Part shown: positions 7,787 to 39,738 of the stretch, piece after piece
How the letters are laid out: every line of letters starts with the position of its first letter
How positions within the stretch are numbered: position 1 is the first letter of the stretch
NCBI RefSeq assembly: GCF_900091725.1
Contig: NZ_FMBW01000071.1
Span: forward strand, 248,001 to 312,000
DNA length: 64,000 nucleotides
Origin: Streptomyces sp. DvalAA-43
GTDB taxonomy: Bacteria; Actinomycetota; Actinomycetes; Streptomycetales; Streptomycetaceae
Reading direction: 5' to 3'
Position numbers and translations under genes: made by a program
Notes under the pieces: generated by a model
Databases searched by the model: none
The model's input: only the letters and a program-made list of their open reading frames with translations
What the model was told of the DNA's origin: nothing

Positions 7787-7857
7787 GCGGGTGTAGTTTA
7801 ATGGTAGAACATGAGCTTCCCAAGCTCAGAGCGCGAGTTCGATTCTCGTCACCCGCT
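7787..7857 (+). tRNA. tRNA-Gly, anticodon CCC
   Basis: 71 nt fold into a full cloverleaf: acceptor stem GCGGGTG/CACCCGC, D stem 7796-7799 with 7807-7810, anticodon stem TGAGC/GCTCA with loop TTCCCAA (anticodon CCC at 7819-7821), and T arm GCGAG-TTCGATT-CTCGT. CCA is not encoded. Its 3' half is the integration site of the whole downstream island, and the gene stays intact because the element restores the sequence. Confidence 0.96.
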
Positions 7858-7858
7858 C
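7817..7858 (+). repeat. att core 1, tRNA copy
   Basis: The 42 bp from the anticodon loop to just past the 3' end of tRNA-Gly, the block repeated at 31309, 37595, 42711, 50469 and 51941. This copy alone has a complete tRNA in front of it. Confidence 0.92.
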
Positions 7859-8359: not shown

Positions 8360-8917
8360 ATGAGTGATGCATTGGCGTTTCCCGCACTGGCCGCCTCGGC
8401 TCTCCCCCAGGCCATCGGGTTCCTCCTCCACCGTGCCGAGGTAGTCCTCGACCGCCGCGCACAGCGACGGGATACGAGCGCTCCGCTCCCGCCGGAGGAA
8501 GTGGAGGAAGTACCAGACGTGGTGGTCGGGGACCCTGGCCACGCGCTGGACTTCGACCCGGCCGAGGTGACCGACGAGCGAACGGAACGGCTAGAGACGT
8601 TGGTGGAAGCGCTCGGGCTGTACGCCGAGAACGGGCACCTGGCCGAGGGGCAGGATGAACGACTGCGCCGCACCCTGGGTCGGCTTCGGGCCCTCCTTGA
8701 GGACGTGTACGGACGTCACATCACCTTCGTCGGCGAAGCGCAGCGGCCTGCAAGCGGCATGCGCATCGTCAACAGAGCCCGAGACGTCCGCGGTGTCTCG
8801 CGTGCATTGAAGGCTCGACGGGTATCCAGCAGCGCGAACGCCGACATCCTCCACACCGCTGAGGTTGTCCATCCCGGCGGGGAAATGATCAGCGTCGAGA
8901 TTGACGAACTTATGTGA
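8360..8917 (+). CDS. Uncharacterised protein, first gene of a three-gene cassette
   Basis: 185 residues, family not recognised. The N-terminus has a hydrophobic/amphipathic segment (LAFPALAASALPQAIGFLLH, residues 5-24), then an acidic linker and a predicted helical middle (ERLETLVEALGLYAENGHLA). Codon use is less GC-biased than in the flanking chromosome. ATG 8360 follows a weak GGGG site. It is 71 bp upstream of the 801-residue STAND-like gene on the same strand, so it probably belongs to that operon. A small partner with an N-terminal hydrophobic helix next to an NTPase-like protein is a layout met in anti-phage systems; that role is inference. Confidence 0.7.
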   Translation: MSDALAFPALAASALPQAIGFLLHRAEVVLDRRAQRRDTSAPLPPEEVEEVPDVVVGDPGHALDFDPAEVTDERTERLETLVEALGLYAENGHLAEGQDERLRRTLGRLRALLEDVYGRHITFVGEAQRPASGMRIVNRARDVRGVSRALKARRVSSSANADILHTAEVVHPGGEMISVEIDELM

Positions 8918-8988
8918 GTTGCGTTCTTAACGCCTCGCCGCACAAGCAAAAATCACAGACCGCATGACCAGCAACGGGGAGAGCAAGC

Positions 8989-11394
8989 ATGGGATTTCCT
9001 GCGCCCGAAAATCCACTCGGCGGAACCTTTCGGGGCGGAAATGGCTACGACGGCTTCGGTAAGGAAGGTCCCCGGGTTGAGCGGGCCAGGCAGGACGATG
9101 CTGACGGCGGCACGCCAACCGACCCACAGTTGCGGGACGGACGTGGGGACCACCGCTCCGATGATGGTCGGGACGGTTCTGTCGGGTCTGGAGCGAACGG
9201 CTTTGCTAGCGGTACAGGCCCAGCCAGCCATGACGATGATCCCGGCGTACGTGAGGCTCAGCGGATGCTGCGGGCTGCGGTCGCCGAACTGCGGCAGGAG
9301 GCCCTGTTCAACTTCGGTGAGATGACGGCGGTGAAGCTCACGGCGGTCCTGGGACAGTTGCTGGAGCACTCGGAGCTGCCCCGCCGCTACCTGGAGACCG
9401 TCCGCGCGGTGTTCGCCGAGCCGGTCGGTTACCGGACGGCATATAAAGCACTTGAGGAGCCGGGCGCGGTGTTGGTCCTGCCCCGGGAGCCTGGTGCGGG
9501 CCGGACGTTCACCGCCCACGCCCTCCTGGCTGATCTGCACCTTCGTACCGGGGCCAGAGTAGGACCCTTGAGCTTCGGCGGCACCGCACGGTTTCCCCTG
9601 CGGCTTCTCCCTCGTGAGCAGAACGCCGGCTATCTACTGGATCTCCCGGCCGACGAGGACGAGACCGTGGCGGTCAGCAGCGACTTCGGGGCGCTGCTCC
9701 ACGACATCCAGCAGACGTTGAAGAACCGCTCCTCACGACTGATCGTGCTGACCACACCGGAGCAGTGGCAGCGGATCCGAGGGGGCGCCCCGGAAGGGGT
9801 CGTCCCCCAACTGGGCAAGCCAGACCCCGTGAAGGTGGCCCGCACCTGGCTCTCGGCCGAGGCTCCCGAACTTGACACCACGCGCTGGCTCACCGACGGA
9901 CGCATTCTGGAACTGTTAGCCGGGCAGCCACCCTCCGACGTTCTCCACACCGTCGGCCTCATCCTCAAGTCCGAGCAGACCAAGCAAATCCACTGGACTA
10001 AGGAGTCCGTAACCCAGGAACAGGTCGAAGCCGACCCGGACGGCTTCAATGCCAGGGTGCTGAGTGTTGTCGAGGCACGCACCGACTGGCGCGAGGAATT
10101 ACTCAAGTGGCACAAGAAGCCGGGAAGGACCGACTTCCAGCGGAACTTCCTTCTGGTCGCCGCACTGTTCCGGAGCGCGACTGTCGCGCATGTGTACGTG
10201 AAGGCGGCCGATCTCTGCGGCCACTTCAAGACACCGCTGTCGCTAAAAGGACAGGTCTCGCCAGGCGTCGTTGAGCTGGTGGATGAGATCGATGCCGACC
10301 TCGATCCGGCGGACGACACGCTCGATTTCGGCCGACCAGGATGGGACGACGCCGTCCTGAGCTACTTCTGGATCGACCGACCAGCGGTACGGAAGACTTT
10401 CCTGGCGTGGATGGCCGAGGCGCCAACGACCAAGAAGAAAAAGACCAACGAGTTCCTGGAGTCGTTCACGACGGACGACCGGCTCCTCTTGGCGAACAGG
10501 GTCGGCACCTTCGCTGTGCGCTGGGCCACCCGTCATAGGAAGCCGGATCCCCTTGAAAAAATCATCTCAGCCTGGCATGGGGACCCGGTCCTGTGGAAAA
10601 CAGCCACCGAGCTGATCTCGGCTGCCTCCCTTCATCCGACCATGGGGCGTTTCATCCACGAGCTGTTGCTGCGCTGGTCCAAGAACAGGGAGGACGCAGC
10701 ACTGCCCAGGTTGGCTGTCGATGTGTGCGCTGGCGAGTTTGGTCGCCTCTACACCACCAAGGCGCTGCTGCGCCTTGGATACGCGGCAGGCTCGGAGGAC
10801 TCCGGGCTACAAAAGTCGCTGCACTCCGCGGTCCGCGCCATCTGGTCTAACCCGACTGCTCGCAAAGCCCTGTTCAACTCAATCATCGACTGGTGCGCTT
10901 CTGATACGAACCGTCTTGCGTCAGGCCGCCGTTCCTTTGCGGCCTTGGCCACTCTGACGGCTGGCCGAGAGGGTGAGGCCGACCCCGAGCCGGTGCTGCT
11001 CCAGGAAGGTAGCGAGGAGGACGAGTTCCAGCCCGCGCTGAAAGACCTGGCCGTCGGCTGGCAGACGTTGTTGACACCCACTGACGACGACACGGTGCCC
11101 GCAGAAGCGCTCCGCCTTTGGATGGACGCCGCCCACCAGCGTCCGAACCTGAGCCCTCTCGTGTTCAGCGTCCTCAGAGAGGCCCTGGACGCACCAGACC
11201 CGGACCTTGCCCGCAGGCTCCGCAACCGCCTGAACGACCTGTTGTACGCCTGGCAGCCCTACCCGGCACCGAACGCCGACGCCACACGCGTACGACTACG
11301 ACACGAACTGGCCGACCTCCTCGCCCATGATCGGAGCCGGGCCGTCGCCAAGTACCACCCCCGTGTCGTCGGCCGTTCCACGGAGACCGCGTGA
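8989..11394 (+). CDS. Large STAND-like protein with degenerate P-loop
   Basis: 801 residues. Residues 1-85 are Gly/Asp-rich and disordered. A P-loop-like region follows: LVLPREPGAGRTFTAHALL (about 162-180) matches Walker A except that Arg replaces the Lys. A hydrophobic strand ending RLIVLTTPEQW could be Walker B, but without the acidic pair. The rest is predicted alpha-helical with repeat-like character, as in the sensor arm of STAND proteins. This fits an inactive STAND protein; no exact family is recognised. ATG 8989 follows CGGGGAGAG. The last four bases overlap the next gene (GTGA), so translation is coupled. Confidence 0.7.
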   Translation: MGFPAPENPLGGTFRGGNGYDGFGKEGPRVERARQDDADGGTPTDPQLRDGRGDHRSDDGRDGSVGSGANGFASGTGPASHDDDPGVREAQRMLRAAVAELRQEALFNFGEMTAVKLTAVLGQLLEHSELPRRYLETVRAVFAEPVGYRTAYKALEEPGAVLVLPREPGAGRTFTAHALLADLHLRTGARVGPLSFGGTARFPLRLLPREQNAGYLLDLPADEDETVAVSSDFGALLHDIQQTLKNRSSRLIVLTTPEQWQRIRGGAPEGVVPQLGKPDPVKVARTWLSAEAPELDTTRWLTDGRILELLAGQPPSDVLHTVGLILKSEQTKQIHWTKESVTQEQVEADPDGFNARVLSVVEARTDWREELLKWHKKPGRTDFQRNFLLVAALFRSATVAHVYVKAADLCGHFKTPLSLKGQVSPGVVELVDEIDADLDPADDTLDFGRPGWDDAVLSYFWIDRPAVRKTFLAWMAEAPTTKKKKTNEFLESFTTDDRLLLANRVGTFAVRWATRHRKPDPLEKIISAWHGDPVLWKTATELISAASLHPTMGRFIHELLLRWSKNREDAALPRLAVDVCAGEFGRLYTTKALLRLGYAAGSEDSGLQKSLHSAVRAIWSNPTARKALFNSIIDWCASDTNRLASGRRSFAALATLTAGREGEADPEPVLLQEGSEEDEFQPALKDLAVGWQTLLTPTDDDTVPAEALRLWMDAAHQRPNLSPLVFSVLREALDAPDPDLARRLRNRLNDLLYAWQPYPAPNADATRVRLRHELADLLAHDRSRAVAKYHPRVVGRSTETA

Positions 11395-12149
11395 GCCCGC
11401 TGATACGCAAAGATTCCTCGCGCAGCGCGGGCACCGCACAGGCCAGCTGGGTGCGTGAATTCCGCGACCTCCTCGACAGCAACGAACCCGGCCTCACATT
11501 CGACGCCACCATCCGAGTCGAGTGGCGCCGGCAGGAAGGCGGGCCGGGCAGCACTACTGCCTACGAAGACGCCGGACGAGCGGTACGGCATATCGCGGAG
11601 AGTCTCGCTTCCCAGCGCAGCGTTTTGCGCTGGGAAGCTACGGAACAGGACATCAACCACGACCTCAGACGCCTCCTTCCATGGTGCACCGAAGGCATTG
11701 AGATCCTGAGAGCGCAGGTCACCCTCCACGTCGACGATCACGCTCACGCCACCGCCCAGCGCATCGCTCAACTCAAGCGTGAAGAGACACTGGAAGAACT
11801 CGCACGCCGCCAGACCGCAGCACGTGTCCGATTCATGCAGGACGAGATTCTGCGTACCCCGGCCACGGCACGCCTATACCTGTTGCTGGAGCAGACCGCG
11901 CACCACGGCTACCTGCCGCCAGGCGTCGATGCCGATCAGATCGTGCGGGATGTCCAGCAGTGGCACCCAGAAGCACAGTGGGTCGCCGTCGCCCAGCTCC
12001 TGCACACCTTCCTAGGCAAACTGACCGACAAGGACGCAGGCGACCTTCTACGCACCCTGCACGTACTGTTCCTGGAGTACGGACAAAAGGAACTCGCCGA
12101 ACAACTCCCAATGGAACTGGGCCAGCGGAACTCGGAGCGACCGGCGTGA
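11391..12149 (+). CDS. Uncharacterised helical protein, third gene of the cassette
   Basis: 252 residues starting at GTG 11391, inside the stop of the STAND-like gene. A beta-rich N-terminal half (LTFDATIRVEWRR, LRAQVTLHVDD) is followed by a charged helix HATAQRIAQLKREETLEELA and helical segments to the end. The order strand-rich domain then long charged helix loosely recalls SPFH/band-7 proteins, but there is no diagnostic motif. It probably works with its two upstream partners, given the coupling. Function unknown. Confidence 0.65.
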   Translation: MSPLIRKDSSRSAGTAQASWVREFRDLLDSNEPGLTFDATIRVEWRRQEGGPGSTTAYEDAGRAVRHIAESLASQRSVLRWEATEQDINHDLRRLLPWCTEGIEILRAQVTLHVDDHAHATAQRIAQLKREETLEELARRQTAARVRFMQDEILRTPATARLYLLLEQTAHHGYLPPGVDADQIVRDVQQWHPEAQWVAVAQLLHTFLGKLTDKDAGDLLRTLHVLFLEYGQKELAEQLPMELGQRNSERPA

Positions 12150-12415: not shown

Positions 12416-13567
12416 TCAGCCTTCCCAAGCAGCGGACGAAGCTTGGCTAGTTGCCCTCCTGACTGCACGAACCCTCAAGTCGATGCCTCCAGCGACCTCC
12501 TGCTGACGTTCGTCGTCGGAGTGCTGGTAGATCAGCGCCGCCTTCTCCGAGGACTGGCCGGCGCGGACCATCGTGTCCTTGAGCGTGGCGCCCGACTGGG
12601 TGGACAGGGTGTGGCCGGTGTGCCGGAGGTCGTAGAAGCGGAAGCCCTCCGGCAGGCCGACCTCGGTCCGGGCCCGGCGCCACTTGCGGCCGAAGGTGGA
12701 CCGGCGGAAGGGGGCGCCCCTCTCTCCGACGAACAGGAGCCCGTCGGGTTCCTTCTCGGCGTACCAGTCGAGGTGACGCTTCACCTCGATGTACAGGAAG
12801 GCTGGGAGGAAGACCGTTCGCCTTCCCGCGGCCGACTTGGTGTCGCCTTCGACGCGACGCCCGGTGGTCAGCTCGGGTGCAGCATCCCGAACCTTGACCG
12901 CGAGCGGTTCGAGGGTGACGTCGGGCCGCCGAAGGGCGGCCTGCTCCTCCGGGCGCATGGGCCCGTAGGCGCCGAGGTAGACCATCAGCCGCCACCTCGG
13001 TCCCATGACGTCGGCGAGCGCGTCGACCTGTTCGACGGTGGCCGTCGGGCGTTCCCTGGCCTTCTCGCTGCCTGCGCCCCTGATCCGGCAGGGGTTGCGG
13101 CGGATCAGCTCGTCGTCGGCCGCCGTCTCCATGATGGCCTTGAGTAGGCGGTAGGACTTGGCGACGGTCGTCGCACCGGTAGTCCCCAGCCGCTCGACCC
13201 GCCAGGTGCGCACGCCCGGCGGCGTGATGTCACCCAGGTTCACCGAGGCGAATGCGGGCAGCAGGTGCAGGCGCAGGAGCCTTCGGTACAGCTCCTCCGT
13301 GGTGGCGGAGAGCCCGCGCTCCTCGACCCACTTCATGGCGTACGTCTCGAAGTTGATCGAGCCAGCATCGGGATCAACCCAGTGCTTGCGCTCAATGTCG
13401 GCCTGGGTGAGCGTGAGCCAGGTCTGGGCCTCGGTACGCGTCTCGAAGGTCTCCGGGGCGGTGCGACGGCTGCCGTCCGGAGCCCAGTAGCGCGTCTGCC
13501 ACCGCCCCGACGGGAGCTGACGGACGGTGCCGAATTCACGTCGCCGCTGCGGCTTCCGGGCAGCCAT
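12416..13567 (-). CDS. int: Tyrosine-recombinase integrase
   Basis: 383 residues: an N-terminal arm-binding part (GRWQTRYWAPDGSRRTAPET), a SAM-like core-binding domain (about 70-155) and a catalytic domain. Catalytic candidates are R205 (YGPMRPEE), R315 (FYDLRHT) and Y347 (ALIYQHSDDER). The usual His of H-x-x-R is Tyr312, and the usual His/Trp before the nucleophile is Gln338 (RAGQSS). Both substitutions are unusual, though decayed copies elsewhere in the island share the Gln. ATG 13567 overlaps the xis stop by one base (TGATG). It should recombine the tRNA-Gly att cores, although it lies 4.5 kb from the nearest one because the cassette at 8.4-12.1 kb intervenes. Confidence 0.9.
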   Translation of the reverse strand: MAARKPQRRREFGTVRQLPSGRWQTRYWAPDGSRRTAPETFETRTEAQTWLTLTQADIERKHWVDPDAGSINFETYAMKWVEERGLSATTEELYRRLLRLHLLPAFASVNLGDITPPGVRTWRVERLGTTGATTVAKSYRLLKAIMETAADDELIRRNPCRIRGAGSEKARERPTATVEQVDALADVMGPRWRLMVYLGAYGPMRPEEQAALRRPDVTLEPLAVKVRDAAPELTTGRRVEGDTKSAAGRRTVFLPAFLYIEVKRHLDWYAEKEPDGLLFVGERGAPFRRSTFGRKWRRARTEVGLPEGFRFYDLRHTGHTLSTQSGATLKDTMVRAGQSSEKAALIYQHSDDERQQEVAGGIDLRVRAVRRATSQASSAAWEG

Positions 13568-13785
13568 CAGGCGGCCTTCCCGAAGCGGGAACGCGCGTCG
13601 CCGAGAATCGGAACGGTGCGCTCCTCGATGTACGCGGCGATGGCGCTCTCGGGGATCCGTACGGGCTTGCCGAGCTTGACGTAGCGGATGCGGCGCTCCT
13701 GGATGAGTCGCCGGATGAAGCGCACGCCGGTGCCGAGGCGTTCGGCAGCCTGTTCCACGGTGAGGAGGGTGTCGGTAGTGGTCAC
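13567..13785 (-). CDS. xis: Excisionase / helix-turn-helix DNA-binding protein
   Basis: About 72 residues: LLTVEQAAERLGTGVRFIRRL, then RRIRYVKLGKPVRIPESAIAAYI, the winged-helix pattern of MerR-like excisionases that bend DNA and drive excision. The GTG at 13785 overlaps a purine-rich stretch (AGGGGGAG), leaving little spacer, so the true start may differ by some codons; the ORF itself is open to 13842. Overlaps int by one base, so the two are made together. Confidence 0.85.
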   Translation of the reverse strand: MTTTDTLLTVEQAAERLGTGVRFIRRLIQERRIRYVKLGKPVRIPESAIAAYIEERTVPILGDARSRFGKAA

Positions 13786-13863
13786 CTCCCCCTGCGGTCG
13801 CGGGTGCTTAACGGGGGCGTGCGGTATCGCCGAAGGGCGCAAGTGAGTGCTCCGGGTCTGGCC

Positions 13864-14639: not shown

Positions 14640-14669
14640 AGCCCCCCGGTGACCCAACACCGAGGGGCT
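14640..14669 (+). terminator. Hairpin in the leader of the DUF3631 gene
   Basis: AGCCCCCCGGTG-ACCCAA-CACCGAGGGGCT, 12-bp stem with one mismatch, preceded by an A run (14636-14640). It stands between the promoter and the gene at 14760, so it may act as an attenuator or end leftward transcripts. Confidence 0.5.
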
Positions 14670-14690
14670 CAGAGCGCAAACCTCATGCCG

Positions 14691-14740
14691 CCCATCCCTG
14701 AACGACTGACCTGCGAGGCCGGGATTGCCGTCCCATTGGC
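14691..14740. repeat. Inverted repeat, right arm
   Basis: Starts CCCATCCCTGAACGACTGAC and is a diverged reverse complement of 13864-13914. Its end overlaps the untranslated leader of the DUF3631 gene. Confidence 0.6.
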
Positions 14741-14759
14741 CCGCAAGCGGAGGAGCTAC

Positions 14760-15995
14760 ATGTCCAGTATGGACGATCCCGCCCAGAGCACGCCATCCCT
14801 TCCGGACACCGCCGCCGTATGGCCGCCGGTGGCCATACCCGGCCGCCCCGCCGAACCCGTACCGCCGCCCGCAGAGGAGCCCGAACCTGCTCCGGCGTCC
14901 GAGGGCGAGGCGGTGCTCGCGGAGCTGCGGGAGCAGATTCGCCGCTACGTCGTACTGCCGAGCGGGGAGGCTTTCACAGCTGTGACCCTGTGGGTTGCGG
15001 CTACGCACTTGCAGACGGCGTGGCAGCACGCTCCGCGACTGGCCGTCGTGGGGCCGGCGAAGCGGTGCGGCAAGTCGCGGCTGCTGGACGTGATCACCGA
15101 GAGCGTTCACGATCCGTTGATCACGGTCAACGCGTCGGCCGCCGCGGTGTTCCGGTCGATCACCGCCACACCGCCCACCCTGCTGGTCGACGAGGCCGAC
15201 ACTCTCTTCGGCTCCGCGAAGGTCGCGGAGAAGAACGAGGAGATGCGCGGCCTGCTCAACGCGGGGCACCAGCGCAACCGCCCCACCCTGCGGGTTTCCG
15301 GACCCAACCACGAGGTCTCGAAGTTCCCCACGTTCGCCATGGCGGCCCTCGCTGGCATCGGCGACCTGCCGGACACGATCATGGACCGGTCGATCGTGAT
15401 CCGGATGCGGCGCCGCAGGCCGGGCGAGAAGGTGGCGGAGTTCCGTACTTTCCGTGACACCCCGCCGCTCCACGCGCTACGTGACCGGCTCGTCGCCTGG
15501 CTGACTCCCCTGCACGCCGAGGCGATGGAGCTGACACCGGCCATGCCGGTCGAAGACCGGGCGGCCGACACCTGGCAGCCGCTGGTGAGCGTCGCCGATC
15601 TCGCCGGCGGAGCGTGGCCGGACCTCGCCCGCACCGCCTGCCAGATCATGGCCAAGCACGAAGCCGAACATGACCAGGACCGCAGCAGCCTGGGCATCCG
15701 CCTCCTGGCCGACGTCCGCCGCGCCTTCACCACCGAAGGCAACCCGCCAGCACTTCGCACCAGCCGACTCCTCGACATCCTCAACCAGGACGACGAGATG
15801 CCCTGGGCGGAGTACACCACCCACGGCCTGACCCCTCGGGGCCTGCAACTCCTGCTCAAGGAGTACGACATCAGCTCGGTCACCCGCCGCTTCCACGGCA
15901 ACGTCCAGGCTCGTGGCTTCACCCGCCTGCAGTTCGCCGACTCCTGGGCCCGCTACTGCCCCGAGCCCACCCCCGAAACGGCGACCGGGGCCTGA
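14760..15995 (+). CDS. DUF3631 ATPase, probable replication/helicase protein of the element
   Basis: 411 residues from ATG 14760 (GGAGGAG just upstream). A P-loop NTPase core shows Walker A VVGPAKRCGKSRLLD and Walker B LLVDEADTLF, a sensor-like region NHEVSKFPTFAMAALAGIG, RSIVIRM, and a C-terminal DUF3631 part ending in a DNA-binding-like domain (SRLLDILNQDDEMPWAEY, GLTPRGLQLLLKEY). DUF3631 proteins occur beside primase-polymerases in actinobacterial integrative elements and plasmids and are thought to help replication or transfer. No RepSA or prim-pol gene is next to it, so this protein may be the main replication factor here. Confidence 0.75.
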   Translation: MSSMDDPAQSTPSLPDTAAVWPPVAIPGRPAEPVPPPAEEPEPAPASEGEAVLAELREQIRRYVVLPSGEAFTAVTLWVAATHLQTAWQHAPRLAVVGPAKRCGKSRLLDVITESVHDPLITVNASAAAVFRSITATPPTLLVDEADTLFGSAKVAEKNEEMRGLLNAGHQRNRPTLRVSGPNHEVSKFPTFAMAALAGIGDLPDTIMDRSIVIRMRRRRPGEKVAEFRTFRDTPPLHALRDRLVAWLTPLHAEAMELTPAMPVEDRAADTWQPLVSVADLAGGAWPDLARTACQIMAKHEAEHDQDRSSLGIRLLADVRRAFTTEGNPPALRTSRLLDILNQDDEMPWAEYTTHGLTPRGLQLLLKEYDISSVTRRFHGNVQARGFTRLQFADSWARYCPEPTPETATGA

Positions 15996-15996
15996 C

Positions 15997-16131
15997 CCGG
16001 CACGACCCGTCACGACCCGTCCCCGCGCAGGTCAGCGCGGTGACGAGTCGCGGTCCGGTGACGAGTCGACTCGTCACTACCGCCGCACTCGTACCGGCCC
16101 TGACCAGGCACGCGACGAGTCGTGACGGGTC
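15997..16131. repeat. Iteron-like cluster of GACGAGTCG/CACGACCCGT palindromes
   Basis: Tandem CACGACCCGT at 15999-16018, GGTGACGAGTCG near 16039, a perfect 20-bp palindrome GTGACGAGTCGACTCGTCAC at 16058-16077, and GCGACGAGTCGTGACGGGTC near 16112-16131. Dense short repeats just after a replication-type ATPase suggest an origin or a conjugation locus. Confidence 0.65.
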
Positions 16132-16181
16132 CCCCGCCCTCAGGGCCACCTCAGCCGCACCCGCACTCTGGAGCATTTCCC

Positions 16182-16955
16182 TTGCCCTCCCCCGCCATCA
16201 CCGCGGCACCGTCTGCCCCGCTGCCACTGGCCACCGCGATCCGCACGGGCGTGTCGCTGCTGGCCGTGGCCGCCTTCGCCCTGTCCTACGACGCGCTGCG
16301 TCAGATGGCCGCCGCCAGCCACATCCACCGGGCGCTCACCTATGCCTTCCCGCTCGTCATTGACGGGTTCATCGCCATCGGGATCGGCGCCCTGCTCATC
16401 CTGCGGACCGCACCCCTGTCCGCCCGCCTCTACGTCTCCGCCCTGGTCGGCGTCGCCACCGCCACAAGCATCTGGGCCAACGTCCTGCACGCCGTCCGCC
16501 TCAACCAGCAGACCCGCCACACCAACCTCGCCCTCGACGACATCACCGTCGGAGTCATCTCCGCCATCGCCCCGCTCGCCCTGGCCGGAGCCGTCCACTT
16601 CTACCTCCTCGTCGCCCGACGCCCCACAGCCACCGACCGCCACAACAGCGGCGACCGCCACGAACCCCGCGCGGAACACACCATCGGTAAGCTCGCGCCA
16701 CCACACGCCACGGACACGGACACCGATGTGCCGCAGCAGCCCGGTAAGCCGGGAGGCAAGCAGTCGAGCGTTTCCCTGGAGCAGGCCGTGGCCATCGGCC
16801 GCACGGCTCCCCTCGGACGAGGCGACAGCGTTTCCCGCCGCAACGTCGAGAAGGCGATCCGGGACAACGGATTCGGCATGTCACGCGCCCGCTTGGACAA
16901 GGTCAAGGACCTGCTGCAGGCCGAACTCGACGCCGTCACCACAAGCACCGACTGA
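16182..16955 (+). CDS. DUF2637 membrane protein (Spd-like)
   Basis: About 257 residues. Four membrane helices lie in the first half (AIRTGVSLLAVAAFALSYDA, TYAFPLVIDGFIAIGIGALL, LYVSALVGVATATSIWANVL, VISAIAPLALAGAVHFYLLV). A hydrophilic tail ends in a helix-turn-helix-like segment (GDSVSRRNVEKAIRDNGFGM). DUF2637 proteins sit in transfer/spread regions of Streptomyces integrative elements. Start uncertain: the TTG at 16182 has GGAG 9 bp upstream and gives the usual N-terminus, while an in-frame GTG at 16122 would run through the repeat cluster. Confidence 0.75.
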   Translation: MPSPAITAAPSAPLPLATAIRTGVSLLAVAAFALSYDALRQMAAASHIHRALTYAFPLVIDGFIAIGIGALLILRTAPLSARLYVSALVGVATATSIWANVLHAVRLNQQTRHTNLALDDITVGVISAIAPLALAGAVHFYLLVARRPTATDRHNSGDRHEPRAEHTIGKLAPPHATDTDTDVPQQPGKPGGKQSSVSLEQAVAIGRTAPLGRGDSVSRRNVEKAIRDNGFGMSRARLDKVKDLLQAELDAVTTSTD

Positions 16956-16978
16956 ACCTCGCACCCCACGTCACCCCA

Positions 16979-17016
16979 GCCCGTTCCTCCCATGAATCAG
17001 CACCGGAGGAACGGGC
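16979..17016. promoter_or_regulatory. Hairpin before mobC, candidate oriT or terminator
   Basis: Perfect 12-bp stem GCCCGTTCCTCC/GGAGGAACGGGC with a 14-nt loop, 34 bp before the mobC start. Inverted repeats next to mob genes are typical of oriT, but a terminator for the DUF2637 gene is equally possible. Confidence 0.45.
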
Positions 17017-17049
17017 CCTCTCCCTCCACCACCGCTTGCAGGAGCCCTC

Positions 17050-17703
17050 ATGCACAGGCCCGTCCGCGAGCCCTCGTCGGCGCAGCAGCAGACCACCTCC
17101 ACCCCGGCATCAGGCGGAGCAAGGTATGGCATTGGACCGTCCACGGGCCGGTCCAACGCAGATGCCTCCGCCCCGGGGGTGGCGGAGGAGCTCGGGCGCC
17201 AGGGGGCGCCCGACCGGAACGAGCCCGTCGACACCACCACCCGCACCGTGCTGCCGCAGCGTGCCGCCGAAGCCGCCGCGCTGCACCGAGTCGCCCGCCG
17301 CCGTCAGCGCAAAGAGACCCAGCGCAAAGAACGCGTCGACGTCCGCTACAGCACCGACGAGAAGACAGCGATCCTCACCGTGGCCCGCTCGCTGAACATC
17401 GCCGCCGCCCACTACGTCGGCGCTGTCGTCATGGCCCACATCCACGGGGACCTCGCCCTGCCCGGTCAGCGCACCCAGCTCGACGACTACATCGACGAAC
17501 TCGCAGCCCTCCGCGGTGAGGTCGCGAAGATTGGCCACAACGTCAACCAGATCGCCAAGAAGCTCAACTCCGGCGACCGTCCACACCATGGGGACACCGC
17601 ACTCCTCGACCATGCGGAACGCGCCCTCGGCACGGTCGGCACCACCATCCGCCACATCGCCGCAGCCGCCACTCAGGCCGCCGCCACAAAGGGGCAGCGG
17701 TGA
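17050..17703 (+). CDS. MobC-like relaxosome accessory protein
   Basis: 217 residues with a disordered N-terminal ~90. A ribbon-helix-helix-like region (RVDVRYSTDEKTAILTVARS, LNIAAAHYVGAVVMA) and the C-terminal signature EVAKIGHNVNQIAKKLNSGD follow; the latter is the hallmark of MobC proteins (G-N-N/V-x-N-Q-I-A). MobC helps the relaxase open the origin of transfer. The stop overlaps the relaxase start by four bases (GTGA), fixing the functional link. Confidence 0.85.
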   Translation: MHRPVREPSSAQQQTTSTPASGGARYGIGPSTGRSNADASAPGVAEELGRQGAPDRNEPVDTTTRTVLPQRAAEAAALHRVARRRQRKETQRKERVDVRYSTDEKTAILTVARSLNIAAAHYVGAVVMAHIHGDLALPGQRTQLDDYIDELAALRGEVAKIGHNVNQIAKKLNSGDRPHHGDTALLDHAERALGTVGTTIRHIAAAATQAAATKGQR

Positions 17704-19400
17704 TTGCGAAGATCAGCAGCGGCAAGAGCACAGCCGGCCTCATCCGCTACCTCTACGGCCCCGGCCGGGCCAACGAGCACACCGACCCGCACCTCGTCGC
17801 CTCCTGGGACGGCTTCGCACCCGACCCCGGCCGCACCGACGACATCGCCGCCACGAAGAAGCTCCTCGTGGCCGACCTCGACCTACGCGTCCAGCAGGCC
17901 AGGCGACTCGGCCGGGCCCCGAAGCAGCACGTGTGGCACTGCTCCGTCCGCGCCGCACCCGGCGACCGCACCCTCGACGACGCCGAATGGGCGGACATCG
18001 CCCGCCGTGTCGTCACAGCGACCGGCATCGCACCGACAGACGATCCGGACGGCTGCCGATGGGTCGCCGTCCGGCATGCCGACGACCACATCCACATCGC
18101 CGCCACCAAGATCCGAGGCGACCTGCGCACCGCACGCCACTGGAACGACTACCTCACCGCCGACCGCGAACTCGCAGCCAGCGAGAAGGAATACGGCCTC
18201 TTTCAAGTCGTACGCGGAGACCGCACCGCCGCGAAACGGCCCACCCGCGCCGAGCAGGAGAAGGCCCGCCGCACCGGCCACGACAAGCCCGCCCGCATAC
18301 GCCTACGCACCCTTGTCCGCACAGCAGCGGCTGCCGCCACCAACACCGAGGAGTTCCTCGCTCTACTCACCCGCACCAACGGCGTCCTCGTCGAGGTCTT
18401 GCACTTTCCCTCCGGAGAACCACGCGGCTACAAAGTCGCCATGGAGCACGACACGAACGCCGAAGGAGAACCGGTGTGGTTCTCCGGCTCCACACTGTCG
18501 CCGGACCTCTCCCTCCCCAAGATCCAGAGCCGTCTCGCCGCAGCAGACATCCCGGTCGGCAATCCCAACGGGCATCTACGGCCGCACCCGTGGCACCAAG
18601 CCACCGCAGCCACGGAGCGCATCCCCCGCCACCTCGGCCGGCCGGACGCCGAAGCCGCCCAGGCCCACCTGGCCGCCCTCGGCGAAGCACTCGACGCCGT
18701 GGCCCTCACCGCACCGCCGGACATCCGTACCGAACTCCGTGCAGCGGCCTCTGCCTTCGAACGGGCAACCCGTTCACGTATCCACGCCGAACACCACCAC
18801 GCCCGTGCCCTGCGCGGGGCAGTGAAATCTATGCTCCGCGAGCCATCACCCAAGGACGGAGCTCTCCTGGCGATGTTCCTCGATGCCGCGCTCCTGGCCG
18901 TCATCGCCGCCGCCCGCTGGCACGACCAACGACAGCACAATCAGCAGGCCGCAGCCGCCCACCAGACTCTGCTCCACCTCCAGGCCGCCTACGAGCGAAC
19001 CTCATCCGGGCACCTGCTTGCCGCCGGCCAGCATCGACCGCCTCAGAAGGTCGCAGTCCGGTACGCCCAGCTCATCCGCCAGACCGCCCCCGCATACGCT
19101 GACCAAATCCTCGCCGACCCCGCCACCGATGCGCTGACTACCGCCTTGGCCGCCGCGGAGACCGCAGGCCACGATCCCGGACGGTTGTTGCAGCAGGCGG
19201 CAGACGAACGCGCCCTCGACGACGCCCGCTCCCCAGCACGCACACTGGCCTGGCGCGTGCAACGGCTCTCGCAGAGGCCCGCTCCAAGCCGACAAGCTCA
19301 GGCGGCACAGGCACGTAGCACCGTCCTACGCCCCGTAGCTCTCCCGCAGCCTGCGACACCGGCCGCACCCACCGCTACCTCTCGGCCTCGGCGTAGGTGA
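17700..19400 (+). CDS. Relaxase (MOBP/VirD2-type mobilization nuclease)
   Basis: 566 residues, GTG start. The N-terminal relaxase domain begins MIAKISSGKSTAGLIRYLYG, where Tyr17/Tyr19 are candidates for the nicking residue, and carries the metal-binding three-His motif RHADDHIHI (H126, H130, H132). The C-terminal half is helical and Ala/Arg rich with a possible hydrophobic segment (LAMFLDAALLAVIAAA). It should nick the transferred strand at oriT. No TraB/FtsK-type pump is found in the window, so the element is mobilizable rather than self-transmissible. Confidence 0.88.
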   Translation: MIAKISSGKSTAGLIRYLYGPGRANEHTDPHLVASWDGFAPDPGRTDDIAATKKLLVADLDLRVQQARRLGRAPKQHVWHCSVRAAPGDRTLDDAEWADIARRVVTATGIAPTDDPDGCRWVAVRHADDHIHIAATKIRGDLRTARHWNDYLTADRELAASEKEYGLFQVVRGDRTAAKRPTRAEQEKARRTGHDKPARIRLRTLVRTAAAAATNTEEFLALLTRTNGVLVEVLHFPSGEPRGYKVAMEHDTNAEGEPVWFSGSTLSPDLSLPKIQSRLAAADIPVGNPNGHLRPHPWHQATAATERIPRHLGRPDAEAAQAHLAALGEALDAVALTAPPDIRTELRAAASAFERATRSRIHAEHHHARALRGAVKSMLREPSPKDGALLAMFLDAALLAVIAAARWHDQRQHNQQAAAAHQTLLHLQAAYERTSSGHLLAAGQHRPPQKVAVRYAQLIRQTAPAYADQILADPATDALTTALAAAETAGHDPGRLLQQAADERALDDARSPARTLAWRVQRLSQRPAPSRQAQAAQARSTVLRPVALPQPATPAAPTATSRPRRR

Positions 19401-24039: not shown

Positions 24040-25362
24040 ATGCGCGTATCCGTCATCGGCTGCGGTCACCTGGGCATCCCCCACGCCGCTGCCATGGCCG
24101 AGATCGGCCACGAGGTCATCGGCGTGGACCTGGACCAGGCGAAGATCGACCGCCTCAACGCCGGCGAGTGCCCCATCTACGAGGACGGCCTGCCCGAACT
24201 CCTCACCACCCACACCGCCACTGGACGCCTGCGGTTCACCACCAGCCTCGAAGAGGCGGCCGAGTTCGCGGACGTCCACTTCCTCGCCGTGGGCACGCCG
24301 ATCGACGCGGACGGACGGAGCTACGACACCGGCCAGGTCTTCGGCGCCGCCCGCGCCCTCGCCCCGCACCTAACCCGCCCGGCAGTGGTCATCGGCAAGT
24401 CCACGGTCACCGTCGGCACCTCACGCGACCTCGGCGCACTCCTCGCGCGTCTCTCCCCGGCGGGTGAAGACGTGGAGGTCGTCTGGAACCCGGAGTTCCT
24501 CCGCGAGGGCCACGCCATCGACGACACCCTGCGACCCGACCGGATCGTCGTCGGCGTCCCCTCGGCCCGCGCAGAGGACGCCGTACGCCAGGTCTACGCA
24601 CCTCTCCTGGCGAACGGGATCCCGCTGTTCGTCACTGACCCCGCCACCGCCGAACTCATCAAGGGTGCCGCCAACGCCTACCTCGGCATGAAGATCTCCT
24701 TCATCAACGGCGTCGCCGACATGTGTACCGCTGCCGGAGCCGACGTCCAGCAGCTCACCGAGGCCATCGGCCTGGACCCCCGCATCGGCCGCGGTGGCCT
24801 CAACGCCGGCCCCGGCTACGGCGGCGGCTGCCTCCCGAAGGACATCCGCGCCTTCACAGCCTCAGCCAGCGCCCTCGGAGCCACCGAGGCAGCAACCTTC
24901 CTGCGGGCGGCAGAGCAGGTCAACGAATCCCGCCCCACCGCTGCGCTGAAGCTCATCGAGCAGACCCTCGGCCACCCCGTCGACGGCGTACGCGTCACCG
25001 TCTGGGGAGCTTCCTTCAAGGCTGGCACCGACGATGTCCGCGAATCCCCGGCCCTGGCGATCGCCGCCCTCATGCACCAGCGCGGTGCGACCATCACCGT
25101 CCACGACCCGCACGCCGTGCCCACGGCACTGCGCCGGCACCCGGAGCTCGACTACGCCGAAGCCCTCGACAACTCCGTCCAGGGCGCCCAACTAATCGTC
25201 CTGGCCACCGAGTGGCCCCACTTCCGAGAGGCCGACCCCAAGGCCCTCGCCCCACTGGTCGCGAACCCGGTCCTCGTCGACCTCCGCAACCTCATCGACG
25301 CCGACGCCTGGCGCATGGCCGGATGGACCGTACGCCAGCTCGGACGACCCGCACAGGAATAA
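24040..25362 (+). CDS. UDP-glucose/GDP-mannose-type nucleotide-sugar 6-dehydrogenase
   Basis: 440 residues. It oxidises a nucleotide-sugar C6 hydroxyl to a carboxylate with two NAD+. The N-terminal Rossmann loop is VIGCGHLGIPHAAAMAEIG. The catalytic set is visible: WNPEFLREGHA (Glu152), ELIKGAANAYLGMKISFIN (Lys208) and GPGYGGGCLPKD (Cys264). The C-terminal substrate/NAD domain has WGASFKAGTDDVRESPALAI. ATG follows AAGGAAAGGAG. The sugar (glucose, mannose or N-acetyl form) cannot be told. No sugar polymer cluster surrounds it, so it is isolated cargo on the element. Confidence 0.9.
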   Translation: MRVSVIGCGHLGIPHAAAMAEIGHEVIGVDLDQAKIDRLNAGECPIYEDGLPELLTTHTATGRLRFTTSLEEAAEFADVHFLAVGTPIDADGRSYDTGQVFGAARALAPHLTRPAVVIGKSTVTVGTSRDLGALLARLSPAGEDVEVVWNPEFLREGHAIDDTLRPDRIVVGVPSARAEDAVRQVYAPLLANGIPLFVTDPATAELIKGAANAYLGMKISFINGVADMCTAAGADVQQLTEAIGLDPRIGRGGLNAGPGYGGGCLPKDIRAFTASASALGATEAATFLRAAEQVNESRPTAALKLIEQTLGHPVDGVRVTVWGASFKAGTDDVRESPALAIAALMHQRGATITVHDPHAVPTALRRHPELDYAEALDNSVQGAQLIVLATEWPHFREADPKALAPLVANPVLVDLRNLIDADAWRMAGWTVRQLGRPAQE

Positions 25363-26217: not shown

Positions 26218-27762
26218 ATGAAGAGCGAAATTCGAAATAGCGACATCACCGGGCTCTTCACGCGGGTAAATAAGCGAGCCTACGACAAATATCTCCGCCG
26301 GGTGCGCCTTGTCAAGCTGCGCGGATTTGAGAATCGTGAAGTTAATTTCGATTTCCCAGTCACGGCACTAGTCGGGCCGAACGGCTCTGGAAAGACTACC
26401 ATTCTAGGCGCGGCCGCACTGATTCATCAGGGCGTTGTCCCCCGGCGATTTTTTGCGAAGAGCGGGAAATATGACGAGAGCATGAAGAACTGGAGAGTTG
26501 AATACGAAATTCTAGACAAGCGCGAAATGAGCAGCACTACAATCAGTCGGACTGCAAGCTATCTCGCGGCGAAGTGGAACCGAGACGCTGTCGAACGAGA
26601 TGTACTTGTCTTTGGAGTTAGCCGCACACTACCCGCAAGCGAACGTAAGGAGTTGTCGAGGTTCATCGGGTCGGGATTTACCGGGTTTTCTGAAGATCAA
26701 CTCACAAGGCCGGTAATCGATGCAGTAGAGGCTATTCTCGGAAAGGATGCCGCAGCTTATTTGCGCGTAAACTCTGGCGAGGGGGACCTTTCGATCTTTG
26801 CCTCCCAGGCCACCGAGGAGTCTGCGGGGTATTCAGAGTTTCATTTCGGCGCTGGCGAGGCCAGCGTGATTAGGATCGTCTCACAGATCGAGTCAGCTCA
26901 AGACCACGCCTTGATCTTGGTCGAGGAGATCGAGAACGGCCTCCATCCCGTAGCAACTAGACGCTTGGTTGAATATTTCATTGGTGTAGCGAAACGAAAA
27001 GCTATCCAGGTAATTTTCACGACGCATTCTAACGATGCACTGGCCCCCCTTCCCAACGAGGCGGTCTGGGTAGCATACAGAGGAGAAATCAAGCAGGGCA
27101 AGTTGGATGTGGCCTCCTTGCGTGCTCTGACTGGGCAAATCAATGCGCGAATCTCAATCTTCACCGAGGATCGATTCGACGAAATCGTTGCCGACGTCAC
27201 CTTGCGTTCCTACTGCCAGAAGCACGGGCTAGACCGCTCCGGAATCGAGATTCACAAACTGGGCGGTGCTGCTCCGGCTAGGGACCACACGCGTTTCCAC
27301 AACTCCAGCCCTGCTCGCAGATTCTTCGCCATTGCTCTCCTTGATGGAGATAAGCGAACCGAGAGTGGGTTCGAACCTAGGGACGTGACCATTTCCAATT
27401 CCGAGGAGGAAGCCAAGACTTTTCCCGACATTGCTTTCATTCCAGGAGATGGCGATCCCGAAGACTTCATTATTGACAGGATTTTGGCAGGGATCAAACA
27501 AGTTCCTACTCTGCTAGGGAAACTGACGATCTCACTGCACCTGGACAGCTTCATGCAAGAGAATGTTCGCCGGTCCGTAATACAGAGGTCATACACAACC
27601 GGTGATCGGCATAACATCTTCCGACAGATCGGCGAAGATCTTGACTTCTTGAGCGAGGAATTGGTGCAGCGCGCATTCATCACCACGTGGGCTTACGCGT
27701 TTCCCGAAGACGTCGATGAGATGTGGAACCAAGTACGCCCGGTACTAGCTCAGCCGGCCTGA
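26218..27762 (+). CDS. OLD-like ATPase with TOPRIM-like C-terminus (putative defence nuclease)
   Basis: 514 residues. An SMC/ABC-type ATPase: Walker A LVGPNGSGKTT (51-61), a signature-like FHFGAGEAS (208-216), Walker B ALILVEEIENGLHP (231-244) and an H-loop IFTTHSNDA (267-274). The C-terminal part has a TOPRIM-like pattern, IFTEDRFDE (314-322) then ALLDGDKR (373-380), as in OLD-family nucleases. OLD proteins cleave DNA in anti-phage defence; class 2 members pair with a UvrD-like helicase, which is absent here. Codon use is markedly AT-richer than all neighbours, which indicates recent transfer. ATG 26218 has AGGGGAG 8 bp upstream. Confidence 0.75.
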   Translation: MKSEIRNSDITGLFTRVNKRAYDKYLRRVRLVKLRGFENREVNFDFPVTALVGPNGSGKTTILGAAALIHQGVVPRRFFAKSGKYDESMKNWRVEYEILDKREMSSTTISRTASYLAAKWNRDAVERDVLVFGVSRTLPASERKELSRFIGSGFTGFSEDQLTRPVIDAVEAILGKDAAAYLRVNSGEGDLSIFASQATEESAGYSEFHFGAGEASVIRIVSQIESAQDHALILVEEIENGLHPVATRRLVEYFIGVAKRKAIQVIFTTHSNDALAPLPNEAVWVAYRGEIKQGKLDVASLRALTGQINARISIFTEDRFDEIVADVTLRSYCQKHGLDRSGIEIHKLGGAAPARDHTRFHNSSPARRFFAIALLDGDKRTESGFEPRDVTISNSEEEAKTFPDIAFIPGDGDPEDFIIDRILAGIKQVPTLLGKLTISLHLDSFMQENVRRSVIQRSYTTGDRHNIFRQIGEDLDFLSEELVQRAFITTWAYAFPEDVDEMWNQVRPVLAQPA

Positions 27763-29702: not shown

Positions 29703-30797
29703 ATGGGTGTCTTCCATCAGCCTCAGCTTCGGCCAGGCCCTCATCGAGATCTGAACGAAGCCCTGCACGACCTGCATCTCCGAGCCGGGTGCCCCAGCAG
29801 CCGAGACATCGCAAAGGCGATCAGCGCTGGTGACTTTCCCGTCACTGCCAGTCATGAGCGGGTACGTATGGCGTTCTCGGCGCCACAGCTCCCTGCCTGG
29901 CAACTGGTGGAAGCTCTCTGCCAAGTGCTAGCGCCGCTGGCAGGCAGCACTCCTACCAGGGAGCTGGACCTAGTCCGCAGCCTTTGGCAAGACTCTCGCC
30001 GGCCCCCACAGGCACGCCCCAGGTCGGCGGTTTCCGCTTCCAGGCCCTCCACTCCACGGCTCGCGCCTGCGCCACGCTCACTTCCCGAAGTACCCGCCTT
30101 CGGCGTCGATGTCATACGGGCCATCAGGGAGCAGTTGAGAGGAACTCTCGTCCAAATGGACACCATTCCCCTGGAAACGGCCAAGGTGGCAGAAGTCCCT
30201 GACTCTGCAGGCATCTACCAACTATTTCACAATGACAGGGCCGTGTTCGCAGGCCGGGCAGAACGCAGTCTGCGCAGCCGGCTCCTTCAAACCCAACGAA
30301 AACTGATTGGCCGCCAGCATATATCCGTCCAGGAGATGGCGTTTCGGGTCGTACCTATGGATGCCCTGCTGGTCGATATAGCCCCTGAGCGCCTGATCAT
30401 CCAATCCACCGATCACCCTTGGAACCAAATTGGCTTCGGAGTTAAGGATCCCGGACGCCAACGGGATAGGACCGCGCTGGCCTCAAGTCACTTCGACCTT
30501 CAATACCCAATCGACCTTGACTGGATCATCCCACAGGAAATCATGGGGGAGTCCCTCCCGCAGCTCCTGCAATCGATTCGCTCTTCATTGCCATACTTGT
30601 TCCGATACGGGAAGAATTACCCGGACCAGCCGGTAAAGAATTTGCGCATCGCCAGCCGGACGCCTGCAAGGGAGGTTTTCGCCGCTCTCTCCGAAGGCCC
30701 TCTTCGAGGATGGCAGATCACCGCCAAGCCGGGGTATGTCATCGCATACGAGGAGAGATACGACTACCCACAGTCCTTGGACGTCTTCCGGCAGTAG
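29703..30797 (+). CDS. HTH protein fused to an Eco29kI-like GIY-YIG endonuclease domain
   Basis: 364 residues. Residues 15-95 resemble the XRE-like N-terminal domain of many Streptomyces proteins (DLNEALHDLHLRAGCPSSRD, SHERVRMAFSAPQLPAWQLV). After a Pro/Ser linker, residues 164-300 follow the Eco29kI GIY-YIG pattern: VPDSAGIYQLF (GIY), VFAGRAERSLRSRL (YIG position, here FAG), KLIGRQHISVQEMAFRVVP, APERLIIQ (Glu), WNQIGFGVKDPGRQRDR (Asn). The second Tyr is replaced by Phe, so activity is uncertain. No methyltransferase is adjacent. Three TTTGACA-like direct repeats (29676, 29686, weaker 29696) lie just before the ATG, which lacks a good ribosome site. Confidence 0.6.
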   Translation: MGVFHQPQLRPGPHRDLNEALHDLHLRAGCPSSRDIAKAISAGDFPVTASHERVRMAFSAPQLPAWQLVEALCQVLAPLAGSTPTRELDLVRSLWQDSRRPPQARPRSAVSASRPSTPRLAPAPRSLPEVPAFGVDVIRAIREQLRGTLVQMDTIPLETAKVAEVPDSAGIYQLFHNDRAVFAGRAERSLRSRLLQTQRKLIGRQHISVQEMAFRVVPMDALLVDIAPERLIIQSTDHPWNQIGFGVKDPGRQRDRTALASSHFDLQYPIDLDWIIPQEIMGESLPQLLQSIRSSLPYLFRYGKNYPDQPVKNLRIASRTPAREVFAALSEGPLRGWQITAKPGYVIAYEERYDYPQSLDVFRQ

Positions 30798-31308: not shown

Positions 31309-31350
31309 TTCCCAAGCTCAGAGCGCGAGTTCGATTCTCGTCACCCGCTC
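31309..31350 (+). repeat. att core 2 (tRNA-Gly 3' remnant)
   Basis: Identical over all 42 bp to 7817-7858 of the tRNA-Gly region. The 5' half of the tRNA is absent, so it cannot encode a tRNA. Confidence 0.93.
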
Positions 31351-37594: not shown

Positions 37595-37636
37595 TTCCCA
37601 AGCTCAGAGCGCGAGTTCGACTCTCGTCACCCGCTT
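37595..37636 (+). repeat. att core 3 (tRNA-Gly 3' remnant)
   Basis: 40 of 42 bp match the tRNA copy; changes are T to C in the T loop (GTTCGACTC) and C to T at the last base. Confidence 0.92.
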
Positions 37637-38096: not shown

Positions 38097-38789
38097 TCAG
38101 TCCGCGGCCGCTGGCCCGGGGCCGTAGTCCGCCTTGAATCCGCCCAGGGTGTCCGCGAGGTGGGCCAGCCAGCCGCTCGGGGAGAACGGCTGGGGCGGGT
38201 CCACCTCCATGCCGAGCTCCGCCACCGCGAGGGCGTATTCGGGCTCCTCCAGGGCCAGGGCGAGCAGTTCGTGGAGTTCGCCCGTGAGGCGGGCGAGCAG
38301 CTGTGGGTGCGTGGTGGTGGTGTAGTCGTGTACGGCCGCATCGTGGTCGGGGAACTCGTCCGGCATGTCCTGGGAGAACCAGCCGCCGAGGAACTGGCCG
38401 AGCTCGGGGAAGCGGGCGTGCCACTCCCAGTGGGTGCCAGGGGCGGCCGGGGACGGGACATCGCCCTCCTCGATGGACCGCTTCAAATGGTCCGCGATCA
38501 CGAACAGCCAGTCCTGGATGGCCGATTGGGGCAGGCCGACGTCCGGCACGGGGTAGAACTCACCGAGGCTCAGGCGCAGCCGGCCCGGTGGGTTGCGGGC
38601 GTACTCGCGGATCTGGCGTTCGGCCGTGGCCAGGGCCCAGGGGCGGGTGTGCCAGGTGTGGCGGAGATAGGCCCGGAGGGCTTCGCTCGGCTCGTCCGGC
38701 TCGTCGTCGGCCGGCATGCCGGTGTACGCGCTGATCACCTGGTCCAACTCACCGTAACGGCGGTCGAATTCGAGCGGCTTCATGGACAC
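38097..38789 (-). CDS. Tandem CdiI-like immunity protein
   Basis: 230 residues with two related halves. The first (ALRAYLRHTWHTRPWALATA, GRLRLSLGEFYPVPDVGLPQ) and the second (HARFPELGQFLGGWFSQDMP, LHELLALALEEPEYALAVAE) each match patterns of contact-dependent-inhibition immunity families. The start is GTG 38789 or ATG 38783. It is the last gene of the leftward toxin operon, just after an orphan RNase A-like fragment, and probably protects against one or both RNase A-like domains encoded upstream. Confidence 0.65.
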   Translation of the reverse strand: MSMKPLEFDRRYGELDQVISAYTGMPADDEPDEPSEALRAYLRHTWHTRPWALATAERQIREYARNPPGRLRLSLGEFYPVPDVGLPQSAIQDWLFVIADHLKRSIEEGDVPSPAAPGTHWEWHARFPELGQFLGGWFSQDMPDEFPDHDAAVHDYTTTTHPQLLARLTGELHELLALALEEPEYALAVAELGMEVDPPQPFSPSGWLAHLADTLGGFKADYGPGPAAAD

Positions 38790-38801
38790 GGCGCTGGACC
38801 T

Positions 38802-39107
38802 CTACAGGTAGATCGGGACGGTGGCGAGCACGACGAAGCCGTGCGGGCTGCTCGGCTCACGCCTGAGGACGACACGTGCCGCGCGCACATCGACGGGCTC
38901 GCGCCCAGCGAGCATCATCGCCTGCAGCAGTACACGGCCGACGGGCGCCTCGCGGGAGGGCCAGGCGGCCTCGATGACGAGGCGGGCGCGGGTGCCCTGG
39001 GCGAGCCAGCGGTGAATCTTCTGCTCGCTGCCGGTCACCACCTGCTGGGTGGCCCAGTGAGCGGTCTCTCGGCCGGGGTAGGTGGCCGAGCGGGTCCGTA
39101 CGGTCAT
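38802..39107 (-). CDS. Orphan RNase A-like toxin domain (truncated)
   Basis: 101 residues: RSATYPGRETAHWATQQVVT, GSEQKIHRWLAQGTRARLVI, VRAARVVLRREPSSPHGFVV, LATVPIYL. This matches the C-terminal two thirds of bacterial RNase A-like toxin domains and aligns with the tail of the effector at 39.7-41.5 kb. The leading GHTL..HVG block with the first catalytic His is missing, so it may be inactive or a donor cassette. Gaps of 11-12 bp separate it from both neighbours. Confidence 0.6.
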   Translation of the reverse strand: MTVRTRSATYPGRETAHWATQQVVTGSEQKIHRWLAQGTRARLVIEAAWPSREAPVGRVLLQAMMLAGREPVDVRAARVVLRREPSSPHGFVVLATVPIYL

Positions 39108-39118
39108 GTCTGTCCACT

Positions 39119-39727: not shown

Positions 39728-39738
39728 CCGGGTCCTTC

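Follow-up and report, generated by a model that had tools for sequence, protein, structure and literature searches.

The window analysed here is a 64,000-nucleotide stretch of Streptomyces sp. DvalAA-43 (contig NZ_FMBW01000071.1, positions 248,001 to 312,000). It carries a cassette of three genes, which we call P1, P2 and P3 and which likely form a three-part conflict module. The original prediction, made from the DNA letters alone, had placed three open reading frames here, and their coordinates were confirmed:

8360–8917, + strand: P1, effector candidate of 185 residues, with an N-terminal hydrophobic segment, a body and a two-repeat tail
8989–11394, + strand: P2, modelled as a STAND-like AAA+ protein of 801 residues with C-terminal helical repeats
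11391–12149, + strand: P3, protein of 252 residues with a modelled SPFH/band-7 fold and a long helix

The overlap described for the last two genes holds, the GTG start of P3 sharing GTGA with the stop of P2. A purine-rich run precedes the ATG of P2 at 8989, and this codon is a plausible start because a TGA in the window closes the upstream frame that is kept open in near-identical relatives.

Relatives of P2 were found at 47 loci of a named GTDB collection, in Streptomyces, Kitasatospora, Embleya, Nonomuraea, Amycolatopsis, Labedaea, Plantactinospora and Glycomyces. The co-occurrence of the three genes, proposed earlier as a check, was examined at these loci: 43 have P1, P2 and P3, three have P2 and P3, and one has only a piece of P2. 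Among the 43 full loci, P1 is divergently oriented in L082 and L090 and only a piece of it is present in L110. L097 was without P1 and P3 in this count, and a richer model later gave a P3-like piece there. P1-P2-P3 is a real, conserved cassette whose genes co-occur beyond chance. Within the genus, P2 was matched in 37 of the 199 Streptomyces genomes and P1 in 18; the P3 family, matched in 71 at E 1e-3 or 56 at E 1e-12, is present in between a quarter and a third of this sample. At all 17 P3-like matches that were fetched from genomes without an earlier P2 match, a P2 relative, recognised with a family profile, stands upstream on the same strand (these 17 were hand-picked among matches with E values of 8e-24 to 3e-17, and weaker P3 matches may be ordinary SPFH proteins). 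The P2-P3 pair therefore looks like the core of the system, and the gene preceding P2 looks exchangeable. None of the three window proteins had a match in PADLOC, PHROGs or NCBIfam; with Pfam, P2 reached only nSTAND3 (E 0.2) and P3 only DUF5798 (E 0.56), and a PDB sequence search with P2 gave no match. The idea of a conflict system whose layout lies outside the libraries is sustained, as a candidate, by these searches, the co-occurrence, a patchy and mobile distribution and the TIR effectors of sister systems described below.

The AlphaFold2 (AF2) model of P2, with a predicted local distance difference test score (pLDDT) of 83.4 and a predicted template-modelling score of 0.79, has disordered residues 1–79, then an AAA+ domain and mostly helices to the end. 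A P-loop-type sheet is formed by strands 161–165, 190–194, 213–218 and 250–255. Pfam nSTAND3 was found in 11 of the 43 aligned P2 members (the window and 42 of the 47 relatives), at best with E 3.8e-6. In structural comparisons with VIA-align, proteasomal and Clp AAA+ domains, ORC/Cdc6 and Avs5 filaments were tied at Z 8.3–10, a middling range for helical models by the program's own warning. On its modelled fold, P2 is a STAND-like AAA+ core with helical repeats behind. Two stretches of the core were followed through the alignment:

9487–9507, + strand: degenerate Walker A, P2 residues 167–173, Arg-172 in 43 of 43 sequences
9631–9645, + strand: Walker-B-like strand, P2 residues 215–219, position 218 Asp or Glu in 41 of 43 sequences

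The REPGAGRT stretch without Lys, already recognised in the original prediction, was confirmed at residues 166–173, with Arg-172 at the Lys position; the same Arg is found in the window and all 42 aligned relatives. In a broader alignment (A1), which took 34 of 38 P2 sequences, this position holds Arg in 31, Ser in two and Lys in one. Because the Walker-A Lys is lost, the AAA+ domain probably works by binding, without hydrolysis.

The long helix noted earlier in P3 spans residues 116–154 of its AF2 model. This model, based on 33 sequences (the window and 32 of the 46 P3 relatives), has a mean pLDDT of 81.5, with residues from about 21 to 140 mostly above 90 and a lower C-terminal third. When it was compared with the PDB by Foldseek, SPFH proteins ranked first (7vhq_G, HflK/C, E 3e-6, probability 1.00). 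The first 29 rows all had probability 1.00; further matches comprised human and archaeal stomatin, HflK/C and vault protein, the last by its SPFH-like part, and flotillins had probabilities of 0.87–0.97. VIA-align superposed 102 residues on the SPFH domain of mouse stomatin (4fvg) with Z 10.1 and a root-mean-square deviation (rmsd) of 3.2, and the unrelated folds listed reached Z 8.5 at most. The domain was delimited from this alignment:

11439–11735, + strand: SPFH domain of P3, about residues 17–115 (VIA-align)

Pfam Band_7 was found in one of the 33 P3 members (E 0.094) and was absent from the window protein; it is the modelled fold that assigns P3 to the SPFH domains of the stomatin, prohibitin and HflK/C kind, with a long helix behind the domain. 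SPFH proteins (stomatins, prohibitins, flotillins) build membrane microdomains across life. The fold of P3 could point to a membrane-homeostasis module in which an SPFH protein and a regulatory ATPase work together, as HflK/C and FtsH do, and which plays no part in conflict. We consider this highly improbable in view of the patchy distribution of P1, P2 and the P3 family among the genomes of the genus, the loss of the catalytic Lys in P2, the TIR effectors of sister systems and the tRNA-linked insertion at some loci.

In the conflict-module reading, P1 would be the effector, and the features that bear on it are the following:

8372–8428, + strand: hydrophobic segment of P1, residues 5–23
8765–8821, + strand: pseudo-repeat R1 of the P1 tail, residues 136–154
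8846–8902, + strand: pseudo-repeat R2 of the P1 tail, residues 163–181
9289–9345, + strand: motif R0 of P2, residues 101–119, N108 and G110 in 43 of 43 sequences

The predicted hydrophobic segment near the N-terminus of P1 was recovered with a 19-residue mean hydropathy of 1.68, and the mean is at least 1.0 in 40 of the 42 aligned sequences (the window and 41 of the 43 P1 relatives), in which Pfam gave only scattered weak matches. P1 carries the tail pattern in two copies, spaced by 27 residues in the protein of the window, and P2 carries a single copy close to its N-terminus, in a fixed register. Among 58 P1-P2 pairs, L092 was left out for its split P2 frame and the other 57 were reduced to 35 by redundancy; L093 and L094 are without R1, leaving 33 loci for the comparison of R1 with R0. 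Ungapped BLOSUM62 scores averaged 9.8 when R1 and R0 came from the same locus, 4.5 when they came from different loci and −15.0 after shuffling (same versus different locus, permutation p 5e-5; this and the other p values for the P1-P2 motif pairs are optimistic, since the loci share ancestry). Only the aligned offset stood out among the 54 that were scored, the next best reaching −5.7 and the 53 others having a mean of −15.2 with a standard deviation of 3.4. The resemblance of R2 to R0 was weaker (−8.6 in the same locus, −12.1 in different loci, p 7e-4) and was best at a shift of two residues (4.2). Local alignment of P1 with P2 over the 35 non-redundant pairs gave 28.1 for matched and 24.5 for mismatched partners (p 5e-5). 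At the level of the family, a related motif is present at the C-terminus of the effector and at the N-terminus of its partner.

In distant loci the SPFH gene stays, and the gene before P2 encodes a TIR protein, a member of a cyclase-looking family of about 240–280 residues or a helical-looking protein of 140–190 residues. The two TIR effectors tested matched TIR_2 at 1.2e-9 and 6.2e-9. Only by eye do the effectors of L046, L052, L055 and L062 look like class III cyclases: Pfam gave no such family in them, and the effector of L046 had no PDB sequence match. Nine representatives were drawn from 17 loci with a gene on the same strand at most 100 bases upstream of P2 (loci with merged or missed effectors being left out), and their effector tails scored 52.0 against their own P2 N-terminus and 27.3 against those of others (p 4e-5), with seven of the nine best in their row. 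The clearest match, in L052, comprises 13 common residues with one change. The motifs differ between sister systems, and bacterial amyloid signalling sequences are likewise reported to differ between systems (PMC7889193, PMC8086366). Among the 58 P1, 33 TIR, six cyclase-like and six other loci of the effector-class sample, an N-terminal membrane-type segment is present in P3 at all 33 TIR loci and at none of the others, in a count that keeps duplicate genomes across collections and defines the class by a match anywhere in the locus. We read this as a single membrane-directed part in every system, either P1 or, where the effector is soluble, P3.

A second system of this family, of the TIR type and with STAND and membrane-anchored SPFH genes, is present in the window's own genome (L060). 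TIR-STAND-SPFH operons recur in Streptomyces (L118–L134, L049–L070) and are often preceded by a gene for 420–540 residues whose product looks, by eye, like a helix-turn-helix regulator.

P1 relatives were also found beside other partners. In three genomes without a P2 match, those of L135, L136 and L137 (E 7e-30, 3e-24 and 9e-28), they adjoin large proteins of the NACHT/AAA_16 type, in which Walker A is complete:

L135 6117–10469, L136 6126–10808, L137 3213–5882: NACHT-type proteins beside P1 relatives

A stretch resembling the P1 tail is found in each of these neighbours, with scores of 48, 42 and 45 that shuffled tails equalled in 2, 8 and 2 of 300 cases, respectively. Both repeats take part in the alignment in L135 and L136, and 16 residues of one repeat in L137. 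Lying inside the NTPase region, after Walker A and before the later NACHT match, this stretch is placed differently from the motif in its usual N-terminal position.

The claim that the cassette lies at an integration site holds, and the sites and genes concerned are these:

7787–7858, + strand: tRNA-Gly (CCC), integration site (ARAGORN; Rfam tRNA 69.6 bits)
7838–7858, + strand: core of the attachment (att) site, 3' end of tRNA-Gly
31330–31350, 42732–42752 and 50490–50510: exact copies of the att core
37616–37636 and 51962–51982: copies of the att core with two mismatches
12416–13567, − strand: tyrosine integrase (Pfam Phage_integrase 2.3e-09)
13567–13842, − strand: HTH_17 protein (2.7e-14), probably an excisionase

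The 21-mer at the 3' end of the tRNA gene recurs along the window where 0.00 recurrences were expected by chance, and several integrative elements seem stacked at this one tRNA gene in a tandem att array (7838–51982). With DUF3631, DUF2637, MobC and relaxase genes at 14649–19400, the first att-to-att interval has the look of a mobilisable integrative element, and the mobile interval also holds a UDP-glucose/GDP-mannose dehydrogenase gene (24040–25362) with no evident link to defence or transfer. The proposed setting among defence genes is partly right: a HEC-04 homologue at 26218–27762 (PADLOC 6.5e-197) lies in the same interval as the cassette, and an Eco29kI-type nuclease match at 29703–30797, also between the first two att copies, stays below threshold (23.6 bits, cut-off 30.8). 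Other att intervals contain a polymorphic-toxin module, with a CdiI-type immunity gene and a short and a 623-residue protein with CdiA-CT RNase A domains at 38097–41610; genes for DUF6177, DUF6507 and pentapeptide-repeat proteins lie nearby.

In seven of the 47 P1-type loci scanned, two of these seven being near-identical, the operon has a tRNA gene (Gly, Arg, Ser or Pro) within 0.9 kb, and in an eighth, L106, at about 1.0 kb. In Streptomyces sp. man185 (L071), whose P2 is 99% identical to that of the window, att copies 5.35 kb apart enclose P1-P2-P3 and a short piece of integrase. In the same genome (L032, 12381–12986), the P3 frame of the near-identical cassette holds an internal stop; the cassette may be decaying in this strain, as the stop and the integrase remnant suggest. 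On plasmids, a single record matched P2, with 24.9% identity over 26% of the query. The position of the cassette between the tRNA-Gly att site and the integrase within an att array, and the att copies that bracket it in L071 together with an integrase remnant, could mean that it serves the mobile element, by excluding competing elements or by stabilising the element through addiction. This appears rather improbable to us: an integrase similar to that of the window occurs in just six of the 59 P1-type loci, counting the window among them (a single query, which unrelated integrases would escape), and defence modules travel in the same way, so that mobility is compatible with defence.

As a conflict module, the cassette is closest in layout to several known systems. 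It resembles the BASS/Bell amyloid NLR signalosomes of filamentous bacteria in its adjacent or overlapping genes, in the motif at the effector C-terminus with a related one at the N-terminus of an NLR-like protein, and in an effector that is small and helical, has a hydrophobic helix and is sometimes replaced by TIR (PMC7889193). The cassette differs from these in having an Arg-loop STAND near nSTAND3 as its NTPase and a third gene (SPFH) after the STAND gene, and P1 was not unified with Bell-like proteins. Fungal HET-s/NLR prion signalling likewise has two pseudo-repeats with a conserved Gly in the effector tail, and the NLR next to it carries a related motif (PMC8086366, PMC7889193); the likeness is one of layout, sequence homology is not claimed, and the available parts of these two papers mention no SPFH partner for HET-s. 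With the iSTAND ternary systems, the cassette shares a constant STAND component that has lost a catalytic motif (PMC7159879). MoxR and vWA partners define those systems, which actinobacteria almost entirely lack according to that paper, and Band seven domains appear in it only within vWA components; the partner here is SPFH. A Pfam scan of the 35 window proteins found no MoxR or vWA gene, and membership of the published iSTAND system was rejected; the label "inactive-STAND-like" given earlier to P2 is right in substance and does not extend to that system. The Avs5/nSTAND3 defence proteins also combine a STAND NTPase with a repeat sensor (PMC12931631), and P2 recalls them by its weak nSTAND3 profile match and its fold similarity to Avs5 filaments. 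Avs5, however, carries a Sir2 effector in the same chain (PMC12931631), whereas here the effector is encoded separately and the P-loop has lost its Lys. A literature search, made mostly without subscription papers and preprints, turned up no SPFH or band 7 protein coupled to a bacterial NLR-like or STAND sensor.

We propose that P2 senses a trigger, which we infer to be of phage origin, probably through its helical repeats, and that it would then oligomerise through its AAA+ domain. R0 would template the two-repeat tail of P1 in a manner like that of BASS and HET-s, the N-terminal hydrophobic segment of P1 would be driven into the membrane and the cell would be killed or halted, while P3 may form the membrane ring or patch where P2 and P1 assemble. 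This P2-P3 core would also drive the other effectors of sister systems, often TIR proteins, each with its own motif pair. The mobile STAND-type (NLR-like) three-part conflict module as a whole, with R0-templated P1, membrane killing and an SPFH platform, has in our estimation slightly better than even chances of being correct; for the amyloid-signalling step between P2 and P1, the chances are about even. The original prediction is partly supported by this analysis, and the SPFH fold of P3, the P1 tail pattern in P2 and the exchangeable effector had escaped it.

Several results weigh against this proposal. No phage phenotype is known for the cassette, no P2 relative was found in phage records, and none of 43 pattern matches in viral contigs was a relative of P2. 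Within P1, matched R1 and R2 are no more similar than mismatched ones (p 0.22). The pair in the window is weak, with a row rank of 5 and a column rank of 12 out of 35 and with 11.7% of pooled shuffled-tail scores as high, and its motif signal alone is not significant. The R1+R2 profile is a poor detector, reaching at least 5 bits in six of 35 P2 N-termini versus 33 of 7000 shuffled decoys, with its best decoy (9.4) above its best real match (9.2). P1 as a Bell domain is unsupported, hhalign giving a probability of 8.4% against three small proteins that we label Bell-like. For P2, the window protein reaches nSTAND3 only at the E value given above, and Foldseek against the PDB found nothing at E 0.001, the best matches being HEAT/armadillo proteins. 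The whole-chain fits of P3 are poor (query template-modelling score about 0.3 and rmsd 12–22 in the top Foldseek rows) because only the SPFH part superposes, and the contrast in its membrane segment, present at 33 of 33 TIR loci, may reflect one ancestral event. Finally, helix (residues 85–107 and 115–121), not strand, covers 12 of the 19 residues of R0 in the AF2 model, where confidence is low (pLDDT 74 for residues 101–110 and 48 for 111–120).

A mostly helical R0 would suit the same three-part module with P1 and P2 coupled by ordinary homotypic contacts, helical or beta, in the style of effector-associated domains, instead of amyloid; effectors and cores that share copies of one small domain are known elsewhere (PMC7159879). 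We regard such coupling as unlikely, the tail motifs being short and containing Gly, Asn and Gln, with two copies in P1 and one in P2 in fixed register, and very different motifs serving the same role in sister systems, as reported for amyloid motifs (PMC7889193).

The layout of the P1-P2-P3 conflict module looks like that of a bacterial cell-suicide or phage-defence alarm of undescribed form. Tentatively, and with somewhat less than even confidence, we suggest a bacterial counterpart of the necrosome, in which an Arg-loop STAND hub would template interchangeable effectors (P1, TIR and others) on a dedicated SPFH scaffold. If the proposal is true, membrane-scaffold proteins would gain a role in prokaryotic cell suicide, bacterial amyloid-type signalling would gain an effector with a two-repeat tail, and the effector-swapped systems would provide a natural series for direct tests of motif specificity.

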